This document shows positions 8,377-62,959 of a stretch of 64,000 bases of DNA, piece by piece. The DNA lies in the NCBI GenBank assembly GCA_961205875.1, contig OY540813.1, positions 19,439,001 through 19,503,000 of the forward strand, read 5' to 3'. The notes under the pieces are model-generated. The model was not told where the DNA came from. It did not search any database and worked only from the letters and a program-made list of their open reading frames with translations. Both the position numbers and the translations under genes were made by a program. Each line of letters begins with the position of its first letter. Within the stretch, counting starts at the first letter, position 1. This DNA is from Sialis fuliginosa. Taxonomy: Eukaryota > Arthropoda > Insecta > Megaloptera > Sialidae.

Positions 8377-10253
8377 TGACAAATTAAAATAACTGAAGGT
8401 TCAGATATAAACTAATTTTAGCTTCCCCTTCGCAAAATTTCTCAAATTTAAATATAAATTATAAAATTATGAATTAATTAGGAAGTATTTAAGATGATAA
8501 AATTGGTCTCGGGGTGGTGAACATTTCAACTACATTATATTTAGGACATACAAATTATTATACCCGAATCAACCTTAAAAGAATATAGGTATATTATATA
8601 TTTGTTACAAATAAAAATTAAGAAGATTAAATGATTTTTTACAATATCTAACATCTTGACATTAATTTTATGAAGATTGTTGCTATCCGATTTTATAAAA
8701 GTTAATTATTTACTAGATAATATATATGTAGACTTTATTATAAAAAGAACAATGACCGAGAATGCATTGTTAAAAATATTAATAAATAATAATGATTTTT
8801 ATCTATAAAACGTAGATAACAAGAGCATTGTTTTCTGTATTAAGGATTAATGTATCAAAAATAAATTAATGATAAATAATTATTTGTTTACATATCGCTG
8901 TGCATATATTTAGAAATTTAAACAAAATATAAAAATAAATGATTGTATAATTTAATGATAACAGTTGATAGCCTGCAAACTACTGAAAGTTCAAATATAC
9001 CAAAGTACCATGGTTATCCAAATAAAATATGTATAGATATTTGAAATTTAAGTCTGCGAAAGATATCAAATAAGCAAGTTTCGGTCGCACCCCTCCTCCT
9101 ATTCGTCAAAAATATGATTGTCTTTTATATTCAACCAATCAGTTTGGGCACCCCAGATGACGTATTTTTCCCTTCTCGCGTCGAGTTACTGAGGCTACCT
9201 TGTACTGTACATACCTTGTATTCAACCAATAATGATATGAACCATTAATTTAATGTGTATAATCAGGGTCGGATTTACGCTTATTATTAAGCAGAATAAA
9301 CAAAGACTTGGGACCCTTAAGCACGGTTACCAGAAGTCCCGAAATTCGCGCTGCTGCGCTATAGTCTCGCAAATTAATTTAGACAACGTTTGATTGAAGT
9401 AATATATATTATTGAAAAATAGTAAGTTTATTATCAAAATTTTATCTAAAATATTTGGGCCGTGTCCTTTGTAAAGTTGTCACAAAGCCCTAGGCCCTGA
9501 GATCGTAGGGTTAACCTAACGACACTGGCATGCCTGGGAATCAGGGACGAACTTTGGCCTAGGCAGACTAGAGGCAACTACTTAGGGTTCGTAATTTCTG
9601 GGGACCCGGATATTCAAAAGTAGAAGCAAAAAAAGTTCTTCAGATATTAATGCAGACAATTTTTTAATCTTTGCTAGAAAAAATCTAATTTTCTAGCCTT
9701 GCCTTGAACTTAGTCCGCCCCTGGTCAGGCCAGATTAATAAAAGTAAATTAATATTTCTATATATTATGTATTTTCATTCGATATTATTATTTTATAATT
9801 ATTTACAATCAGAAAAAAATATTGTTGAAATTTAAGTTTTAATATATAATAAATATATTAAAACAATTTAATAATCATTAATTAAAAGAATATGAATTAT
9901 TTAGAAAATTAATTTAAATCAAATTAATAACATATTGCACAGCCCTGAAACTAGAATTTCTGGTTATCTTCCTCCTATGACATTACGTCAATTGTCATCG
10001 AACTTAACCTTAATAAAAGACAATAATCACAAAGAATAGTAATACATGATCGTACACTCGCAAGATTCATTTGCTCTAACAATATTCAACAGTAAAAAAG
10101 TGTTTTAAAATCTAATTGTTTGAATTAAATATATTGTAGTTAAAAACCAATCATTAAATGATACCGGCTTTTTAATAGTCGATCTTATAATTAGTTATTG
10201 TTGTCGATATTGTTATTGTTTACTTTTATGAAGTTAAACATTAATTTAAAAAT

Positions 10254-13200
10254 ATGTTAAAAATATTGTTAATTATTTGTGTCTTTAGTAATAGTATTTT
10301 AGGGAAACCAACTAATAAAAATGTAGAAATAAGTACTTGTGGCTATGAGGTAAGAATTAATTATTTATTTATTATATTTGAAATTATTTATATTCAAAAC
10401 AATAAAATAATTATATTTCATAATATAATATAATATAGTAATATAATATAATATAATGAACTTTTCGCATATTTTTTCTAGAAAAATATGTTGTTATTAA
10501 TGTCCTCACCCCATTAAAAAATTTCTCTACCTCCCAAAAAAAATCCTGGTTACGCCAATGACACATTGACTATTGAAATAACATTTTACGTTTTGTACAT
10601 TATCAGAACAGCACCGTTCACACGCGTCGTACCGATTATTTCCCGTACTCTAGGCAGTAAGGCAGTGACAATGCATTTAATATTATACGACCGTACACGT
10701 TTACCAGTCATTACCTAGACCTAGACTAGGCTATAGAGCACAGGAAAAAATGTTACGGGAATAATCCGCGGTACGGTGGTTATGTATTTATGTTATTTAT
10801 TGTCAACAATGTCAAGACATAGAGCATGTCCAAAATTAGTAAATACACAGGTTGCTTAGTAGCTTTTGACCAATCAGCTTGGGCACCCCAGATAACGTAT
10901 TTTCCCTTTCTCGAGTCAAGTTACAAAGCTATATTTGTTATGATTGGGCACATCATTCCCCCTCTCCACATTTAGGCACCCCAGATGACGTATTTCCCTC
11001 TCTCGCGCTGAGTTACTGAGACTACCTTGTACTTAACATACCTATGGTCAAGACTATTTGAAAAACAACTGTCCTTTTTGTGCACAAAAGCAGGGGCGCC
11101 CGCAGAAAATTTTTCGAGGTGTGAGAAAATTTGTAAAAAACATACCTTAACAAGTTGACCGCCGTATAAAAAGTTCGATATGCCAGGGGCGGTCGTATAC
11201 GACCGCATGTAGCCGGCCAAATTTATTATTGGTATCTGAGCCATTTTTTGTGATTTCTTTATGGCAATCAACCTGTTAACCATGCCTTAACGCTAGAAGG
11301 CTAATCTACGCAGAGGCTTTTCATTGGTCAATTCAACTAACATCAGTTAATATCCTTATTAATTATACATTAATATATTTGATTTATGTTTTAATTTTTT
11401 GTAGCTTCATTACCTATTTTAGAGGAATATAAATAAAAAACACAGTTTTTGTAAATTTTTTTATTAAAAGTTACAAAAATCAATCTTATTCTACTTGTTT
11501 TGAAAATTTTTCGTAGAAGGAATAAAACAAAAACTATATTCTTTTTTTTTTACTAAATAAACTTGCTTTATCTAATATTACTCTAACTTAAAAAAATTAA
11601 TTTTTTTTTTTAATACATATTAGCATATAACAAAAAAGTTACCAAGAGGCTATTCATTACATTCACTAGTTTATTAGCTTACAGCTGTAAACGAATTTTC
11701 ATGTTACAATATTTATTTATTATTTTAATTTCCAGTCATGCAATGCACCTTTACCTGATATGTTAAATGTCCATTTAGTTCCTCATACTCATGATGATGT
11801 AGGCTGGTTGAAAACTGTAGATCAGTATTATTATGGAAGTAAGTTTTTATATTTCTTCATTATATATAATATAATACGAATAATATATTTTTTATTTCCA
11901 GGTAGAACAAATATTCAACGAGCAGGAGTACAATATATTCTAGATTCAGCGATAACAGAACTTCTAGCTGATAAAAACAGAAAGTATGAATTGTAAAAAT
12001 AATATTTGTATTATTCAAATAATACATTTAATTATTTTAATAGGTTTATCTATGTCGAGTCTGCTTTCTTATGGAAATGGTGGAAAGAACAGAGTGATCA
12101 TCGTCGCCATCAGGTTAGAGCACTTATAAATAATGGACAGTTAGAAATTATTGGTGGTGCTTGGAGTATGAACGACGAGGCTACTACTCATTACCAATCA
12201 ACAATTGATCAATTCACATGGGGATTTAGGTAACTTTACTAACTAATAAACTATCAGTTAGTGATTAGTCAAGAAAAAATATCTTTTATACTTCAGATTT
12301 TTAAATGATACGTTTGGTGCATGTGCCCGGCCTAAAATTGGTTGGCAGATTGATCCATTTGGCCACAGTCGTGAAATGGCATCCATGTTTGCCCAATTTG
12401 GTTTTGACGGACTCCTTTTTGGACGTTTAGATTATCAAGATAAAAACCAACGTATGAAAACTAAAACGGGTGAAATGATTTGGAAAGGCAGTGCTAATTT
12501 AGGTAGAACTATAGCTTTTATTATAAAAATATATCTACATTATAAATTTTTATTTTTGGTAATAGGTTCTTCAGCTGAATTATTTACCAGTGTTTTATAC
12601 AATCAATATCAACCTCCTCCTGGATTTTGCTTTGATGTTTTATGTTCAGATGAACCAATCATTGACGATAAAGAAAGTAGAGACTACAATGTTGAAAAAA
12701 GAGTATGTATTCAATTTTTTAATTCAAACTTTTGTCAATATCATATTAAGTGAAAGATTTTTTCTATTTTTTTTTATAAAAGAAATTATTAAATTTATTT
12801 TATAATTTTAATTAGAAAATCGAACTAAACCAAAATCCGTAAAAAGAAGTGATACAAATCGAAGCCAACTCATTATTTTGCATTGGGAAAAATAATTTCA
12901 AAATTGTCAAATATACAACATAATTCATTTTTTACTAATAAAAAGTAGAGCAAAATATTAGTACCTACTATTAATACCTAGCAATATTCATTTATCGCTG
13001 ATTTTTTATAAGTGTATAAAAATTCTATAGATTTTTCAAATTTATTACATTTTTACTGATTGAAAGAAAAGTTATAAAAAATAAATTTCCAATGCACTTA
13101 TATACAAATCATTCACAATCCAAAGTGAATAACCGCACATTTTATCAACATTCTAAATTTGATGTCTTGTTCAATAGATCAATACACCTATAGATATTAC

Positions 13201-16200
13201 ATTGATATTGTGTTCTTGAAAAATGCTGTATTTAAATTACTAATAATGTATGACTTCCTATAAATCTGTAAATTGTTAATCATTTTGGCTTCTGAACAGC
13301 TTACATTCATAAAGTTCCTGAAAAAAATACGCTGTAACTTTATGAATGCCCCACAAATTATGTCATAAAAAAAAATCACTGCTTTATAACAAAATTATTT
13401 CATCTGCTATTCACCAGCTTGCATATTTGTTGTTTCTCATTCAATATTTAAATTCAATTCAATCAAGTTACTTACAATTAAAATATATATCAGGTAAATC
13501 AGTTTTTGGAATTCATTATGAAGCAAACAAAATACTATCGCACTAACAACATCATTTTAACGATGGGGGGGGATTTCACATACCAAGATGCCAACATGTG
13601 GTATAGGAATCTAGATAAATTAATCAGGTGCGTATAATACAATTTTTTTTTTCCTCCAAACAGTGGGAGATATTTGAGACGTTTGTTAAGAAGCAAGCTC
13701 TATCTTATAAATCAAATAATATTATTTTAACTATGGGCGAAGACTTTAATTATCAAGATGCACACATGTGGTATAAAAATTTGGATAAATTAATTAAGTA
13801 AGTTTCATTGTTTCCAAAATACAGTACACTCTAGTTATATTAACTGATCTTCATTAAAATGTAGAAAAAGAAACTACCTGAACTTTTACGTGTAGTGTAA
13901 CAAAAATCGTTCATTTGTTTATACATATAATATTAGGTGTATAAATTAATTCTCAGCTTCTAAATAAAATCAGCTGTAGCATTCCAGCTCAAAAAAATGC
14001 CAACAAGGCTAAGGAAATGTTTTGTTCAACCTTAGGAGAAGATGAGATCCTAGAGCATGTGTAAGAAATGATTCTAGAAAATAAATTTTAGACAAGTGAT
14101 ATTGGTGCATGACAATGCAATAGGTTACTCAGGGAATACAATCAAGGACATATATTCTATGTTTTCCGAAGTTCTCCCTAATGCAAATTATTCTACAGAC
14201 TTTGTCCCTTCTAATTATCATTTGTTCCGGTCTTTACAACATTGCTTTGTTGATTCACACTTCAAAATGCCCAAAGATGTCAATAAAAGCATTTGACTCA
14301 AACCTCCATCCATTCAACGCCCAATCAATGGCAAAAGTGTATAGTTCTGATAAAGATTATTATGCAGATTAAAATATCTTATAATTTTTTATATATAGAG
14401 AATTAATTTGTACACCTAACATATTAATTTTAATGAATCAAAACACAATAAGAGAAGTATTAATTGGATCAACATTAAAAAACCATAAATAAAAGTAGTA
14501 AATAAAAAAATATACTCTATGTAACCTATGTATAATATTTAAATGTAAAAATTATAATATTTTGTTATTCAAAATGCTTTAACAGATACGCAAACGAACG
14601 ACAAAAACAAGGCTCAAATATTAACGTTTTCTATTCAACACCATCATGTTATATTAAAGCTGTTCATGATTCAAACCAGCAGTGGCCAACGAAATCTGAT
14701 GACTTCTTCCCATACTCATCTGATCCACATGCATTTTGGACTGGCTATTTTATATCTAGGCCAACAATTAAATATTATGAACGATTTGGTAATAAAGTCT
14801 TACAGGTAATTAGTTTGTGATTCAATATAAATTATAATTTTTTAAACAAACTTATAATGCTCCAAAGGTTGCTAAACAACTAGGGGTAGTAGAAAATGAA
14901 AGTGATCGTTTAAAAGGACTGAAAAAGCTACGTGAAGCAATGGGAATAATGCAACATCATGATGCTGTAACTGGTACGGAAAAACAACATGTAGCTGAAG
15001 ATTACGCATCAATTCTTTCACATGCTATCGATACATCTCTTGAGGAAGCATCTGTAAACTTAAAGTAAGTTATAAACATTAAAATCAAATGTAACTATTT
15101 TTTCTCATGGTTGACATCGTTTTATAATATCATATACAAATACAATAAACATAAATATTACGGTTTAAGTCTTAAGTAATATATTAAATGAATTATATGT
15201 TATACACAGTTTGTCCAGATAGATTCAAAAAAATATCCTGATTTTTAATGACTAATTGCCTTATGAAGCTTGACTTTCAACAATGTAAACCTAAAATTTT
15301 AAGGTACATACATACTAGCATGTCGGTCTCATTAGTTTTGAGGTTAAATATATTGAGGCTCATCAAAATGACATCAAGGAACAAAGAGCCAATATTAAAT
15401 TCTGTTTGAAATAAGCTGGTGAAATAATGAAAAATGTGTACAGTAGTAAACGTTTTTAGCTGGTATGCTAAAATTTGTAACGGTAAAGAGAACATCACAG
15501 ACACTCCACGAGCTGTGCGAGCACCACCACTAAAAACAAATTGTACCTCTGAAAATGTGCAAAATATGCATAAAATACTTTAATCAGACTGATGTGTGTA
15601 TGCATACCTTAAAACATCGTGCATCAAGGTCTGTGCAAGATTGTACATGATTTCGTGACCAGAAAAAATATATCATATTCGCCTGATTTGGCTCCATGTG
15701 ACTTCTGACTATTCTCAAAATTCAAATTGGCAATAAATGGAAAGCTTTACGACACCATTCAGGGTATCCAAAGAGCTTTGACCGCAGTTTTTAAGGAGAT
15801 GCAATACAGTGATTACTTTGAAAAAAAAATTATATCTTCAGCAGAAATGTATTTAAAAATTAAAAATCAAGAATAATTTACTTCTATATTTTGTACCAGT
15901 TACTCCCATAAACTGAACAAACTGTGTATGTTCTTAATTTTTGACCGCATGGACAGACATTTTTCGTTGTTCATTAATTTAATTTATATTTAAAATAGCT
16001 AGCTTGGGAACCGAAATGATGTTTTTACCTTGTAAATTATTAGAATTATTTATTATATTTGCATCATTATACTTTTAGCTTATTACTTACTTCAAAAGAA
16101 GAAACAAAACCTCAGTTAGATTTTGAGATGTGTCATTCATTGAATATCAGTCAATGTTCGGTATCAGAAGATTCTAAAATTTTTGTAGTGGTTCTTTATA

Positions 16201-19200
16201 ATCCGAGTAGTCGAAACGTTACTCACTATGCACGTGTTCCTGTTACCGGCCAAAATTATTCTGTAAGAGACCCTAGTGGTACGTAATAATAAATATTGTA
16301 ATTTTTTATTTCTTACTTTTTTTTTTTATTCAGGTAATTACATTGAAACACAGTTAATTCCAATTGCACAATCTGTGCAAAATATACCAGGACGAATCAG
16401 TGCAGCTACCAATGAATTAGTTTTTGTTGCATCTAATATTCCACCACTTGGATACAAATCATATTTCATATCACTAATGAACTCAACTGGTCCTCTCCAA
16501 CATACGTCTATTGCAAATGAAAAACTTAAAGGCCCACTGGGCAATGAAAATACTAAAATACATTTGAACGGCAAATCAGGAATAATAAAAGGAATCAAGT
16601 TCGGTACAACTGAAATTCCATTATCACAGAGTTTTGCGTTTTATGAGGGCGCAGTTGGAGATAATAGAGAATTCAAGAACCGCTCATCTGGCGCTTATAT
16701 TTTCAGACCAAACGGTACAATTCACACGTTCAATTTAACTGCTGACAATAAAGTATATCGTGGGCCAATTGTTGATGAATTACACCAAACTTATAATTCG
16801 TGGGTTAGTCAGATTGTTAGAATATATCACAAAGAGGATTATGCAGAGTTTGATTGGATTATTGGACCTATTTCTATCGAGTATGTATATTTAAATCTCT
16901 CAATATAAATAACTGATTTTTAGCAAAACAAATTTTACATATAAATATATATTTGGATATTCCAAAAAAAATATCCACTCTTATGAAATAAGTTATTTTA
17001 TTACATAAATAAAAAGGAATATCCTGTAGTTTGATTTTAAGAGGTGCTGCAAGAGGGGTCCCATTTTCCATTTAAATAACATGGAAAAATTATTCTTTAG
17101 TACTAATGCTTCGAAATCTCCAATTACAGAGCAATTTCCTTACTTTCAACATTTGCCAAGATATTCGAAAAAATTATACATGATCGCATAACCAAGTGTA
17201 CTGATAAATATTCCATTATATCAAAACACCAATATGGTTTAAAAAAAAACGGTTTCATTAACCTAGCTTATAATCACTACATATTATGCGTTTATCGAAT
17301 CTAACATCAGATACGGCATTGTATGCTGGGGAAAAAATGTTTAAGAATAATAGACAAAAAAGATCCCCGTAAATCTTGTCAAAATCTTTTCCGAAAATAT
17401 AATATACTCACTGTTACCTCCTTATACATCCTTGAGTGTACCTTATTCATAAAAAAAATATCCTTCCTTCTTCGAAAATAGCAGTACCAAACACAACTAC
17501 CCCACACGCAATAGAACTCAGCTAGTCACAAATTTTGCTTCCTTGGAGACTACCTACAAAAACCCTCACAACAACGTAATCAAAATCTATAATAAAATAC
17601 CTAACACTATCCAGAACCTACCATACAATCAATATAAAAATAAAATAAAATCCATACTATTTACCAGTAGTTTTTATACTGTAGAAGAATTCTATGAATA
17701 CATTTATTCTCACCTATAATTTATTATATCATATTTCAGTTATATTTCATTGTTTACTCTTTACATAAGTCTTTATTTTGATAGTATTTAGTACCTTATT
17801 TTGTCAAATTTATTATTTGTTTTTTCTCTTCATATTAGCATTGTAATTTCTTTTTTTTTCTTTTTTTGTCGTCTGATTTTACACTGTACCACAGTTTATA
17901 AAATAAATTGTATTATTATTATTACTGAATCATAACAACTGATAAAAAAATTCTCTACAAAAATGTTCACAACGTATATAATATTAGAATCTATAGAAGT
18001 TGATGATGTTTATACTTTTAGCACAGTGTATAAAATATTTTGATCAATTACATGAACATTTTTTGTGTAATTTGGTCATAATTATATAAAAAATGAATAA
18101 CCATTTAAATTAATTATTATATTGTATTGAATATTAATATTTTTATAGTGATAATATTGGTAAAGAAATTGTAACACGATTCACTACTGATATTAAATCT
18201 GAAGGAATTTTCTACACTGATTCTAATGGGCGTGAAATGCTACAACGAAAACGTAATCATCGTGATACTTGGGAATTGGAATTAGAAGAACCTGTTGCAG
18301 GAAATTACTACCCTGTTACTTCATGCATTTCACTAAGAGATTCAAATAATTTACGCTTGTCTGTACTGAATGATAGAGCTCAAGGTGGTAGCAGTTTAAA
18401 TGATGGAGAACTAGAAATTATGATACATCGTAGATTGCTGCATGACGATGCATTTGGTGTGGGTGAAGCATTAAATGAAACCGCATATGGACTTGGACTT
18501 GTTGCTAGAGGTCAACACTTTATTATTGGTGGAACTGATGAAAATTCTTGTAAGAGAAAAATTATCTTAATTAAATATTTCTTTATAACTTATTAAAATA
18601 TTTTTATAGCACCAACATTGGCAGCAAAAGAACGAATTCTAGCTCAGAAAGTGTTACTATCTCCATTACCATTCTTTATCAGAGCAAACGAAATGTCTTT
18701 CAAAGATTTTCAAGATACATATAATTTAGAAGTTTGTATAAAATCACAATATATTTTCTCACAGAAAATTTCATAAAATTATTTTTTAGCATTCACATAT
18801 TCAAAAGCCATTACCTGATAATGTTCAAATATTAACATTGGAACCTTGGAAAAATGAGTCGATTCTTCTTCGTTTAGAACACTTTTTAGAAAAAGACGAA
18901 GATTCTTTATTATCCAAACCAGCTGTTGTAGATTTAGCGGTAACTAAATTAACAATACTGAAATGAATTGTACCTAGTATTAACTGATTCTTTTTTTGTA
19001 GAATTTATTCACAACATTTAAAATTCTCAGTATGAGAGAAACTACTCTTGGCGCTAATCAATGGCTTTCTGAAATGAATCGCCTGGAATGGACAGCAGAA
19101 AGGTTGACGTATGATAATGAAATTGAGTTATTGACAAATGAAATTAAGGCTGCTTTTGCTAATGATAAAAATACCGAAAATAAAGCAAAGCGTTCGCTGA

Positions 19201-19268
19201 AATCCTCTGAAATTTCTCTTGATCCAATGCAAATACGTACATTCATATTGAATGTAGAATATATTTAG
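10254..19268 (+). CDS. Lysosomal alpha-mannosidase (GH38)
   Basis: Retaining zinc glycoside hydrolase expected to trim alpha-mannose from glycoproteins in the lysosome. Coding exons: 10254-10349, 11736-11838, 11902-11983, 12044-12229, 12297-12502, 12566-12702, one of 13494-13627 or 13664-13797, 14586-14805, 14868-15064, 16079-16278, 16334-16880, 18149-18549, 18610-18731, 18790-18939, 19002-19268. All phases join without a break to give about 1015 residues, close to the 1011 of human MAN2B1. Residues 1 to about 17 form a signal peptide. Zinc site: HTHDDVGW (His51, Asp53), Asp175 in WQIDPFGHS (also the expected nucleophile), and His419 in QHHDAVTGT. Acid/base Asp297 lies in the duplicated exon. 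The middle and C-terminal beta domains are present ([43 protein letters not shown]). The exon ending at 18731 has a weak donor (GAA|GTTTGT). An AATAAA lies at 19375-19380. The assignment to the lysosomal rather than the Golgi mannosidase II group rests on these motifs. Confidence 0.95.
13494..13797 (+). other. Tandemly duplicated, apparently mutually exclusive exon pair of the mannosidase gene
   Basis: Exon 7a (13494-13627) and exon 7b (13664-13797) are both 134 nt. Both start in phase 0 and end in phase 2. Their 45-residue translations align without gaps, with 28 identical residues. Both keep the catalytic-acid Asp: [15 protein letters not shown] in 7a and [15 protein letters not shown] in 7b. 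Each alone joins in frame to the exon ending 12702 and the exon starting 14586. Including both would shift the frame, because 134 is not a multiple of 3. The gap between them is only 36 nt, too short for a normal intron. 7b has the stronger signals (a long pyrimidine tract before CAG, donor GTAAGT); 7a has a weak tract and donor GTGCGT. Both reading frames are open, so neither is an evident pseudo-exon. Confidence 0.85.
13933..14419 (+). mobile_element. Mariner-family element, internally deleted relic
   Basis: The terminal inverted repeats are TTAGGTGTATAAATTAATTC at the left and the reverse complement of TTAGGTGTACAAATTAATTC at the right, differing at one position over about 22 bp. The left flank is TA; the right flank is CA, probably a decayed TA. 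Inside, the + frame at 14096-14296 encodes a decayed mariner transposase C-terminal part, with HDNA followed by a [12 protein letters not shown] segment. The element is 487 bp against about 1.3 kb for full length, so it cannot move by itself. It sits in the intron directly after the duplicated exon. Confidence 0.8.
15205..15926 (+). mobile_element. Mariner-family element, second relic
   Basis: The ends are CACAGTTTGTCCAG and its inverted counterpart CTGAACAAACTGTG, each next to TA (15203-15204 and 15927-15928). Near 15685-15870 the + frame reads [10 protein letters not shown], then a stop codon, then a typical mariner transposase C-terminal stretch. The catalytic region upstream is degraded and partly deleted (722 bp in total). 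It is a different mariner lineage from the element at 13933-14419, because the ends differ. It lies within the mannosidase intron at 15065-16078. Confidence 0.8.
17095..17930 (+). mobile_element. Non-LTR retrotransposon (jockey-like) 3' fragment
   Basis: In the large intron 16881-18148. The + strand encodes broken reverse-transcriptase pieces: [20 protein letters not shown], then SKHQYGLKK. After a deletion come [12 protein letters not shown] and a C-terminal tail ([19 protein letters not shown]) typical of jockey-type LINE ORF2. It ends in a (TTA)n-rich tail (TATTATTATTATTACT, about 17910-17926) in the same orientation, as LINE 3' ends often do. Frameshifts and stops show it is dead. Confidence 0.7.
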
Positions 19269-19374
19269 ACATAGTAAAATGTATGTTGCTTAAACATAAT
19301 TCTGTTTAAAGTTATTAATACATAACTTTTCTTAAAAAGCTTATGTATTGCATGTATATATAAAAACTTTAAAA

Positions 19375-19380
19375 AATAAA
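19375..19380 (+). terminator. Likely polyadenylation signal of the mannosidase gene
   Basis: AATAAA (with an overlapping AATAAATAAA) lies 107 bp after the mannosidase stop codon. It is the first such hexamer in the 3' flank. The reverse-complement hexamers that could serve ci on the other strand lie at 19635-19640 and 19410-19415. Confidence 0.5.
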
Positions 19381-19798
19381 TAAACAAAAAAATTTCTTTA
19401 CATTTATATTTTATTTAAAAAAAACATTTATATTACACAAAGCACAAAATGTTGAGATCACAACATTATTATATATATATATTTTTGAATAAAATGACAA
19501 AATTTAAAACAATGTCCGTAACTTAAAAAATTACTTATATAAAAATAATTTTGTTAACATGTACAATTTTAAAGCCAAACCATCAAATAAAAAAGATTCA
19601 TACATATATAATACATTAAAAATAATACAATCATTTTATTTTCTATTTGGCACTTAATTAAATTCAAATTAAAACATACTTATTAAATACAGTAGAAAAT
19701 ATGATCGTTAATAAATATTTGAAAGTACAAACTTAGTTTTAATATTTGTATATTACAATTTTGCAAAAATTTCACTATCACAATAAAAAAAACTCCAT

Positions 19799-40440
<20,642 letters not shown>

Positions 40441-62017: not shown

Positions 62018-62959
62018 CAGTGGTGGCGAACCTTTTTGAGCTTGCGTGTCATGAGTTTTTATTTTTTGTGCAATATTATGCAGCGTGCCTATAAGAAAAT
62101 TATAAAGTATCCTGTTTGCGTAGTTTAAAAAAAAATATGAAAAATAAAATATAATAAAAAATACACTCCTTTTATTAGGTATAATATATGTACATAAGTA
62201 TGTAAATTAAAAAACAATGAAAGAAAATCAAAAAATTATTCATTTTAATTGATCAAAAAATAAAATTGAATGTGATTTTTGCATTTGTATGGCAGCTGCC
62301 AAATTTTTTACATCCGGTTCATAACTGGTGGCTTTGAGCAGGATACAAGCAGCACTACTTTCATCTGTAAGTCTACTTCTTATATCCGATTTTATCAAAT
62401 TCATTGAAGAAAACAATGCTTCACATGTATATGTGGATGAAAAAATGGTTAAAATTGCCATTGCTATTTTTTTTAATGAACAAAAAATGTCTGGCATGGA
62501 TTTCCAAGTTTTTAATAATTCTGCTTCGGCACTATTTTGGGTTCCTCCAGATAATCGATCTCGCTCCATATCTTCCAAAATCTTTCTTAAATCTATATTT
62601 TATGTTTTGTTTGTAACATAAAAGCAAAAGAACTTCAGTATAATTACCGCGAATTTCAATTATTGTCATAAAGAAATCTTAAAAAGACATTAAAACTCAA
62701 TATATTTAGAGTTACAAAATAGAAAAACAGATCGTGGAAGAAAAGTGCATCATACAAAAATATGTTAAATAGAAATATTATCTCTCCATGCAGTTAATAT
62801 GGAACACAGTATTAGTATAAATTATAGTGTATGTACAATAAGTATGAATTTTTAAATTTCCCTTGAAAAAAGAAATCGTCAAATCAGAAATTTTGCGTGC
62901 CTACCAAAATCATCACGCGTGCCACTTGTGGCACGCGTGCCATAGGTTCGCCATCACTG
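62018..62959 (-). mobile_element. hAT DNA transposon, internally deleted, with C-terminal transposase remnant
   Basis: Ends are CAGTGGTGGCGAACCT and AGGTTCGCCATCACTG, flanked by identical 8-bp copies of CTATAATA (62010-62017 and 62960-62967). The minus-strand frame at 62578-62240 encodes the hAT C-terminal dimerisation region: the typical STYTCEALFSSMNLIKSDIR and RLTDESSAACILL motifs, ending at a stop codon. The N-terminal zinc finger and most of the catalytic domain are missing, so it is non-autonomous at 942 bp. The intact duplication and the open frame indicate recent arrival. The protein resembles the animal hAT lineage with ZBED/EPM2AIP1-like relatives. Confidence 0.85.

Follow-up and report, generated by a model that had tools for sequence, protein, structure and literature searches.

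Two neighbouring, probably mutually exclusive exons encode the catalytic acid of a predicted lysosomal-type GH38 alpha-mannosidase in Sialis fuliginosa

The window analyzed here, a stretch of 64,000 nucleotides from the genome of Sialis fuliginosa, carries on its plus strand (10254-19268) an intact gene with 15 coding positions, 1015 encoded amino acids and exclusively GT-AG introns (Table 1). Both isoforms that can be read from it matched PF01074, PF09261, PF07748, PF17677 and PF21260 above the Pfam cut-off; these domains represent the N-terminal, middle and C-terminal parts of GH38 enzymes plus the LAMAN-like central domain. The catalytic half scored 5.2e-121 against the jack bean enzyme and 1.3e-119 across 298 residues against the bovine lysosomal enzyme 1o7d. 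Golgi mannosidase II was rejected as the identity of the gene, the Drosophila Golgi enzyme scoring 3e-49 in the same comparison. The gene is thus predicted to encode a lysosomal-type GH38 alpha-mannosidase (LAMAN), for which lysosomal location and an acid pH optimum would be expected.

Searching the whole genome with PF01074 and a 421-residue query, we found, among the best candidates scored, GH38 matches only in the window gene and at two further places, C6 and C8. Both of these genes read GDDF at the catalytic acid, like Golgi enzymes. The genome therefore has one LAMAN locus found, which is a lower bound since additional LAMAN genes were sought among the best candidates scored; the other GH38 places are Golgi-type. 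The gene on C8 (L026 494-3373) has an uninterrupted frame of 959 amino acids and is devoid of the RTN motif of its relatives. A family search of the genome for phytoene synthase returned a single match, whose frame probably represents the common mitochondrial NDUFAF6 relative and not a carotenoid gene of the aphid type.

Elsewhere in the window, a neighbouring gene on the minus strand (~19799-25074) encodes Gli/Ci-type zinc fingers, of which those within 23031-23303 match 2gli (E 4.7e-23). A long frame at 19799-21868, rich in Asn, Gln, Met and Ser and containing a repeated unit of 11 residues, may be part of the same zinc-finger gene. A hAT transposase dimerisation domain (PF05699, E 1.5e-07) lies at 62240-62578 on the minus strand.

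Table 1 Features of the LAMAN gene and its alternative exon 7 (positions refer to the window).
Feature	Position	Strand	Remarks
LAMAN exon 1	10254-10349	+	start codon, hydrophobic N-terminus (signal-peptide-like by eye)
LAMAN exon 2	11736-11838	+	His and Asp of HTHDD motif
LAMAN exon 3	11902-11983	+	gene model
LAMAN exon 4	12044-12229	+	gene model
LAMAN exon 5	12297-12502	+	Asp175, aligned with Asp196 of mammalian LAMAN
LAMAN exon 6, constant	12566-12702	+	Gln240, partner position of selectivity pair
Alternative exon 7, version A	13494-13627	+	134 nt, phase 0 in / 2 out, donor GTGCGT
Exon A codons Gly296-Asp297	13569-13574	+	selectivity-site residue and acid/base Asp
TTAAT, nearest YTNAY upstream of B	13620-13624	+	inside exon A; motif only, putative branch point
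A-B spacer	13628-13663	+	36 nt: donor of A, T10CCTCC tract, AG acceptor of B
Alternative exon 7, version B	13664-13797	+	134 nt, phase 0 in / 2 out, donor GTAAGT
Exon B codons Glu296-Asp297	13739-13744	+	selectivity-site residue and acid/base Asp
LAMAN exon 8, constant, follows either A or B	14586-14805	+	gene model
LAMAN exon 9	14868-15064	+	QHHDAV motif
LAMAN exon 10	16079-16278	+	gene model
LAMAN exon 11	16334-16880	+	gene model
LAMAN exon 12	18149-18549	+	gene model
LAMAN exon 13	18610-18731	+	gene model
LAMAN exon 14	18790-18939	+	gene model
LAMAN exon 15	19002-19268	+	stop codon TAG 19266-19268

Exon 7 of this gene is present in two versions, A and B. The initial annotation had described them as two neighbouring exons of 134 nt with the same phases, 36 nt apart, and the recomputed coordinates, lengths and borders agree with this description; each exon is bordered by AG and GT. 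Translation and alignment also upheld its statements that both are open, that 28 of 45 residues are identical and that both carry the acid/base Asp. The same residue is found in 28 of the 44 whole codons, the 45th position being the split codon at the exon end, which gives Arg or Lys. At the nucleotide level, 87 of 134 positions are identical and 47 differ. Both exons are without an in-frame stop, frameshift or broken splice border; on the plus strand of the window, 4156 of 63868 stretches of 132 nt (6.5%) are open in frame 1. The alignments to bovine LAMAN 1o7d and jack bean 6b9o, in which the acid/base Asp is kept in A and B, together with the Pfam domains, bear out the assignment of the pair to the catalytic acid of a lysosomal alpha-mannosidase. 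Exon A matches 1o7d with an E-value of 2.2e-10 and exon B with 2.3e-07.

The direct repeat formed by A and B extends just ~11 nt beyond the donors, and this loss of similarity in the flanking introns fits an old duplication. When the exons were used as 44-residue queries against the whole genome, the best candidates scored were, for exon A, itself, B and, weakly, one other place (E 0.22), and for exon B just itself and A. There was no third copy in the window, and further copies in the genome were limited to weak places with E 0.22 or worse (best candidates scored). A search for relatives of the exon pair gave five pattern stretches in the viral_contigs collection and two in the genome_contigs collection, none of which was confirmed.

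Several properties of the gene suggest that A and B would not enter the same message. The full frame of 1015 amino acids is obtained with A alone or B alone. If A and B are joined, the frame is broken, as had been claimed, and stops after 336 amino acids; if neither is included, it stops after 282, and retention of the 36-nt gap leads to an in-frame stop after 317. One exon at a time would give a working message, while double or skipped messages would end early and probably be destroyed. The gap was also proposed to be unusually short for splicing, and it is indeed shorter than the introns of the gene itself, of which nine are short (55-67 nt) and five are long (791-1386 nt).

We additionally inspected potential branch points. 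The gap contains no match to the branch-point motif YTNAY, and the nearest one upstream of B has its branch-type A at 13623, which leaves 40 nt to the spacer's end; a laxer TAAT is found ~10 nt past the donor of A. In seven of the nine short introns, as read from the positions, YTNAY is located 30 nt or more past the donor and 12 nt or more ahead of the acceptor. Since the gap is only 36 nt long and devoid of YTNAY, with the nearest motif inside exon A, splicing of A to B looks physically blocked; these motifs are loose, and they support such a block rather than prove it. A human survey uses a distance of <50 nt from donor to branch point as its criterion for steric interference (in a passage of PMC5740500). 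Here, the entire spacer is shorter than this distance, the branch point being placed by motif. A too-short spacer and the decay of double-inclusion messages are two of the mechanisms listed in part of PMC6071210. Within the 36 nt, the branch-point region of B would overlap with the donor of A, which would make A unjoinable to B, and each message would carry A or B.

The strength of the splice sites was assessed with donor and acceptor matrices built from the other 13 sites of the gene. The donor of B is strong, with 5 of 390 GT sites in the gene scoring as well, whereas the donor of A, matched or exceeded by 28 of the 390, is moderate. For the acceptor of A, which is fair, the corresponding number is 25 of 392 AG sites. 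In contrast, the acceptor of B is poor: it scores -2.67, a value reached or exceeded by 143 of 392 AG sites, and it beats only 1 of the 13 other acceptors in a leave-one-out comparison, on a matrix that is itself weak, as one accepted acceptor of the gene model scores -10.01. An uninterrupted T10CCTCC tract precedes the acceptor of B. The poor acceptor score is the main result in the sequence that argues against equal use of B.

Regarding RNA structure, the intron preceding A contains a perfect 13-bp hairpin with a 19-nt loop (13304-13316 / 13336-13348), 145 nt upstream of the acceptor of A. The hairpin is more stable than shuffled sequences (z -4.53), and at least one such hairpin is expected in 28 of 2000 Markov sequences of the 1.9-kb stretch; the count for the window is three. 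A second close copy of a hairpin arm or a competing partner, such as docking/selector structures use to choose one exon by alternative intronic pairings, was not found near B, and the hairpin could be regulatory or the trace of a mobile element. Folds over the exon borders, which made up three of the four stretches folded, were no stabler than shuffles (z 1.20, -0.36 and 0.37). There were no matches to known RNA families within 9000-20000, and no conserved regulatory element was found in this single genome. In the intron following exon B, a stretch at ~14090-14300 on the plus strand resembles, by eye, a decayed mariner-type transposase and has no match in Pfam; it may have contributed to the length of this intron.

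In order to obtain information on selection, we compared A and B pairwise within this one genome according to Nei and Gojobori. In this dN/dS-type comparison of A with B only, pN (0.22) was far below pS (0.96) over all 44 codons. In the catalytic half (codons 18-44), where 23 of 27 residues are identical, we counted 14.5 synonymous differences over 13.2 sites, which is saturated, and 4.5 non-synonymous differences over 67.8 sites (pN 0.066). For one lineage evolving neutrally for a dS of 0.5, ~25 non-synonymous differences would be expected in this half. We also simulated one copy decaying neutrally until its nucleotide distance from the other equalled that observed between A and B. The 23 of 27 identity of the catalytic half was reached in none of 20000 runs starting from A and none of 20000 starting from B, and at least 28 identical residues over the whole exon in none of 5000 runs from either copy. 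The saturated synonymous sites and the outcome of the simulation (0 of 40000) indicate that both copies were coding through most of their separate history. A second copy that is a neutral relic was thereby ruled out for most of this history, the recent past excepted. The differences are unevenly distributed: in the front helix, 12 of 17 residues are changed, whereas the catalytic half has 4 changes among 27 (Fisher p 0.0003), which confirms that the isoforms differ across the helix preceding the Asp.

Compared to bovine LAMAN, A matches in 22 and B in 18 of 43 columns, and the respective numbers for the jack bean enzyme are 20 and 19. With 28 of 43 shared columns, A and B are closer to each other than to either enzyme, which places the duplication after the split from both of them. 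Of the 22 columns in which bovine and jack bean agree, 17 are kept by A and 15 by B, and B alone swaps the Arg-Thr of the YRTN stretch for Lys-Ser. B is thus the slightly more derived copy; the numbers in a relative-rate count (5 vs 1 for bovine, 3 vs 2 for jack bean) are too low to be decisive.

From the active-site residues of LAMAN listed, in human numbering, in part of PMC11931667, the comparison covered His72, Asp74, Trp77, Asp196, Arg220, Asp319 and His446-Asp447. The first six align with His51, Asp53, Trp56, Asp175, Arg199 and Asp297 of the gene product, and His446-Asp447 is matched by the QHHDAV motif. Among the residues checked, only the general acid Asp297 (Asp319 in mammals) is encoded in the swapped exon, while the rest is constant. 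The residue before it is Gly in A (GGDF) and Glu in B (GEDF), a difference that was pointed out initially and that translation and alignment reproduced.

Gly/Glu296 aligns with bovine Ser318 and with Asp340 of the Drosophila Golgi enzyme, and the partner position is Gln240 in the constant exon 6. According to passages of PMC13204073, the Golgi pair Asp270-Asp340 and the neutral lysosomal pair Asn262-Ser318 form a non-conserved selectivity site, the ionization of Asp340 varies with the protonation of the catalytic acid, and position 340/318 is a demonstrated inhibitor-selectivity position in GH38. Isoform A is therefore predicted to be lysosomal-like (neutral/neutral), and isoform B to contain one carboxylate. 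That the difference between GGDF and GEDF sits on a published Golgi/lysosomal selectivity position makes a functional difference more plausible, albeit unproven. The jack bean enzyme, which is of the acidic vacuolar type, already has Asp at the selectivity position, so that an acidic residue alone does not make an enzyme Golgi-like.

Taken together, we consider it likely that A and B are tandem duplicates that are both used, in a mutually exclusive manner, as exon 7 of the LAMAN gene, from which we infer two enzymes from one gene. The exons have equal length and phases, compatible borders and homology without stops, which correspond to criteria for tandem mutually exclusive exons given in parts of PMC3228551, PMC6071210 and PMC5740500, and both copies show coding selection. 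The original proposal of mutually exclusive exons was thus uncontradicted by the frames, the intron and branch-point comparison, the selection tests and the genome searches; the one point on which it fared less well is the poorly scoring acceptor of B. The two predicted enzymes would agree in their zinc and nucleophile residues and in the catalytic acid, but the helix preceding this acid would differ. The Gly or Glu neighbour could shift the pKa of the acid and the substrate fit at that subsite. Given either-or use, a real catalytic difference between the A and B forms, such as the one in pH optimum or substrate preference suggested initially, is plausible but a close call, which we place marginally on the negative side.

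The strongest competitor to a catalytic difference is that both exons are used and yield equivalent enzymes. The changes would then represent drift in a tolerant surface helix and at a variable residue, and the pair would be kept through inertia or because it serves dosage or regulation. The concentration of differences in the helix fits such drift, as does the variability of the residue before the catalytic Asp, for which Ser, Asp, Gly and Glu all occur in the sequences compared. Moreover, 9 of the 15 differing columns (2-44) vary between bovine and jack bean too; the other six, however, are conserved between these enzymes. A long-retained pair of constrained copies usually implies a use for both, which counts against equivalence. 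The variable residue also coincides with the demonstrated selectivity position (in part of PMC13204073). We regard equivalence as quite possible, although not as the favoured outcome.

The main rival to the splicing claim itself is that one of the two exons, B being the likeliest, worked through most of its history but has lately become a relic that is retired or hardly ever used, the animal making only the other form. Apart from being more derived, B has lost the Arg and Thr of YRTN that are kept in the bovine, jack bean and Drosophila Golgi enzymes, yet the Golgi-type gene on C8 likewise is without RTN. The poor acceptor of B, scored on a small matrix, agrees with such a loss of use, but its donor is better than that of A and its acceptor follows the T10CCTCC tract. 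Against retirement also speaks that B has acquired no stop, frameshift or broken border, and a long neutral period would be hard to reconcile with so few non-synonymous differences. Overall, we consider a retired exon improbable.

A pair that mainly serves to switch the enzyme off, one exon being a poison exon in regulated unproductive splicing, is considerably less probable still. Double inclusion, skipping and gap retention each give an early stop, as such a switch would have it. However, a poison exon has no need for catalytic sequence, and both copies are under protein-level constraint; A alone or B alone keeps the frame, and the 36-nt spacing speaks against double inclusion. Finally, we see practically no chance of an assembly or haplotype artefact, as the two copies diverge in over a third of their nucleotides (47/134), are located on one contig inside one gene and were each found once by the genome search, and no evidence favouring an artefact was found.

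Returning to two mutually exclusive, used exons, a more specific reading is that splicing makes a lysosome-like (A) and a Golgi-like (B) active site, with pH optimum or linkage preference shifting by compartment, tissue or diet. The subsite of A, Gln240-Gly296, would be uncharged like bovine Asn262-Ser318, and B would place Glu296 beside the catalytic acid, where the two Golgi-type genes of the genome have Asp. We consider this reading tentative and rather unlikely. If it were true, exon duplication would here do the job of the six-gene LAMAN family in Drosophila. The salivary glands of a bamboo aphid show high expression of a lysosomal alpha-mannosidase (in part of PMC9874943), so that in sap feeders the enzyme may conceivably have an additional, non-lysosomal role. 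Should both forms be produced, they would constitute a natural GH38 pair whose sequences differ only in 16 or 17 residues surrounding the catalytic acid. With such a pair, one could examine directly how the residue beside the acid determines the pH optimum and the Golgi/lysosomal selectivity that inhibitor design depends on (as stated in part of PMC13204073).

Mutually exclusive exons are a known kind of arrangement, and the catalytic-acid exon of a glycoside hydrolase is an unusual place for them. Consistent with the initial annotation, our literature search found, among the papers listed, no description of a splice switch or such exons in GH38 enzymes; the word mannosidase has no use in PMC3303723 and PMC5740500. 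The LAMAN pair resembles the tandem exons of Dscam, myosin heavy chain and 14-3-3 in that homologous neighbours have equal length, phase and borders, break the frame if joined and are separated by an unspliceable spacer. It differs from them in carrying the catalytic acid of a glycoside hydrolase, and its either-or use is inferred from DNA.

Splice choices that exchange the catalytic core of an enzyme are described as rare in a section of PMC7434440. According to this source, the mutually exclusive exons 6a and 6e of coq-2 in C. elegans and helminths similarly remodel an enzyme core by the substrates, one exon being family-like and the other derived. However, coq-2 encodes a prenyltransferase, for which RNA, mutant and product evidence exists, whereas the LAMAN pair is known from DNA alone and swaps the catalytic acid itself. 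In human CYP4F3, splice choice also alters enzyme specificity (cited in a portion of PMC7434440); this tissue-specific and biochemically proven case concerns a cytochrome P450 and, unlike LAMAN, no glycosidase.

With the lysosomal or vacuolar alpha-mannosidases of bovine, human and jack bean, the gene product shares domain order and active-site residues. The solved sequences of these enzymes contain a single version of the acid/base exon, in which the acid is preceded by Ser (bovine) or Asp (jack bean) and not by Gly or Glu. Several versions of lysosomal GH38 enzymes within one insect are also known from Drosophila, where they are provided by six separate genes, LManI to LManVI (as described in part of PMC4006722), in contrast to the one LAMAN locus found here with one duplicated exon. 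If both forms are made, exon duplication would replace gene duplication in the LAMAN family.
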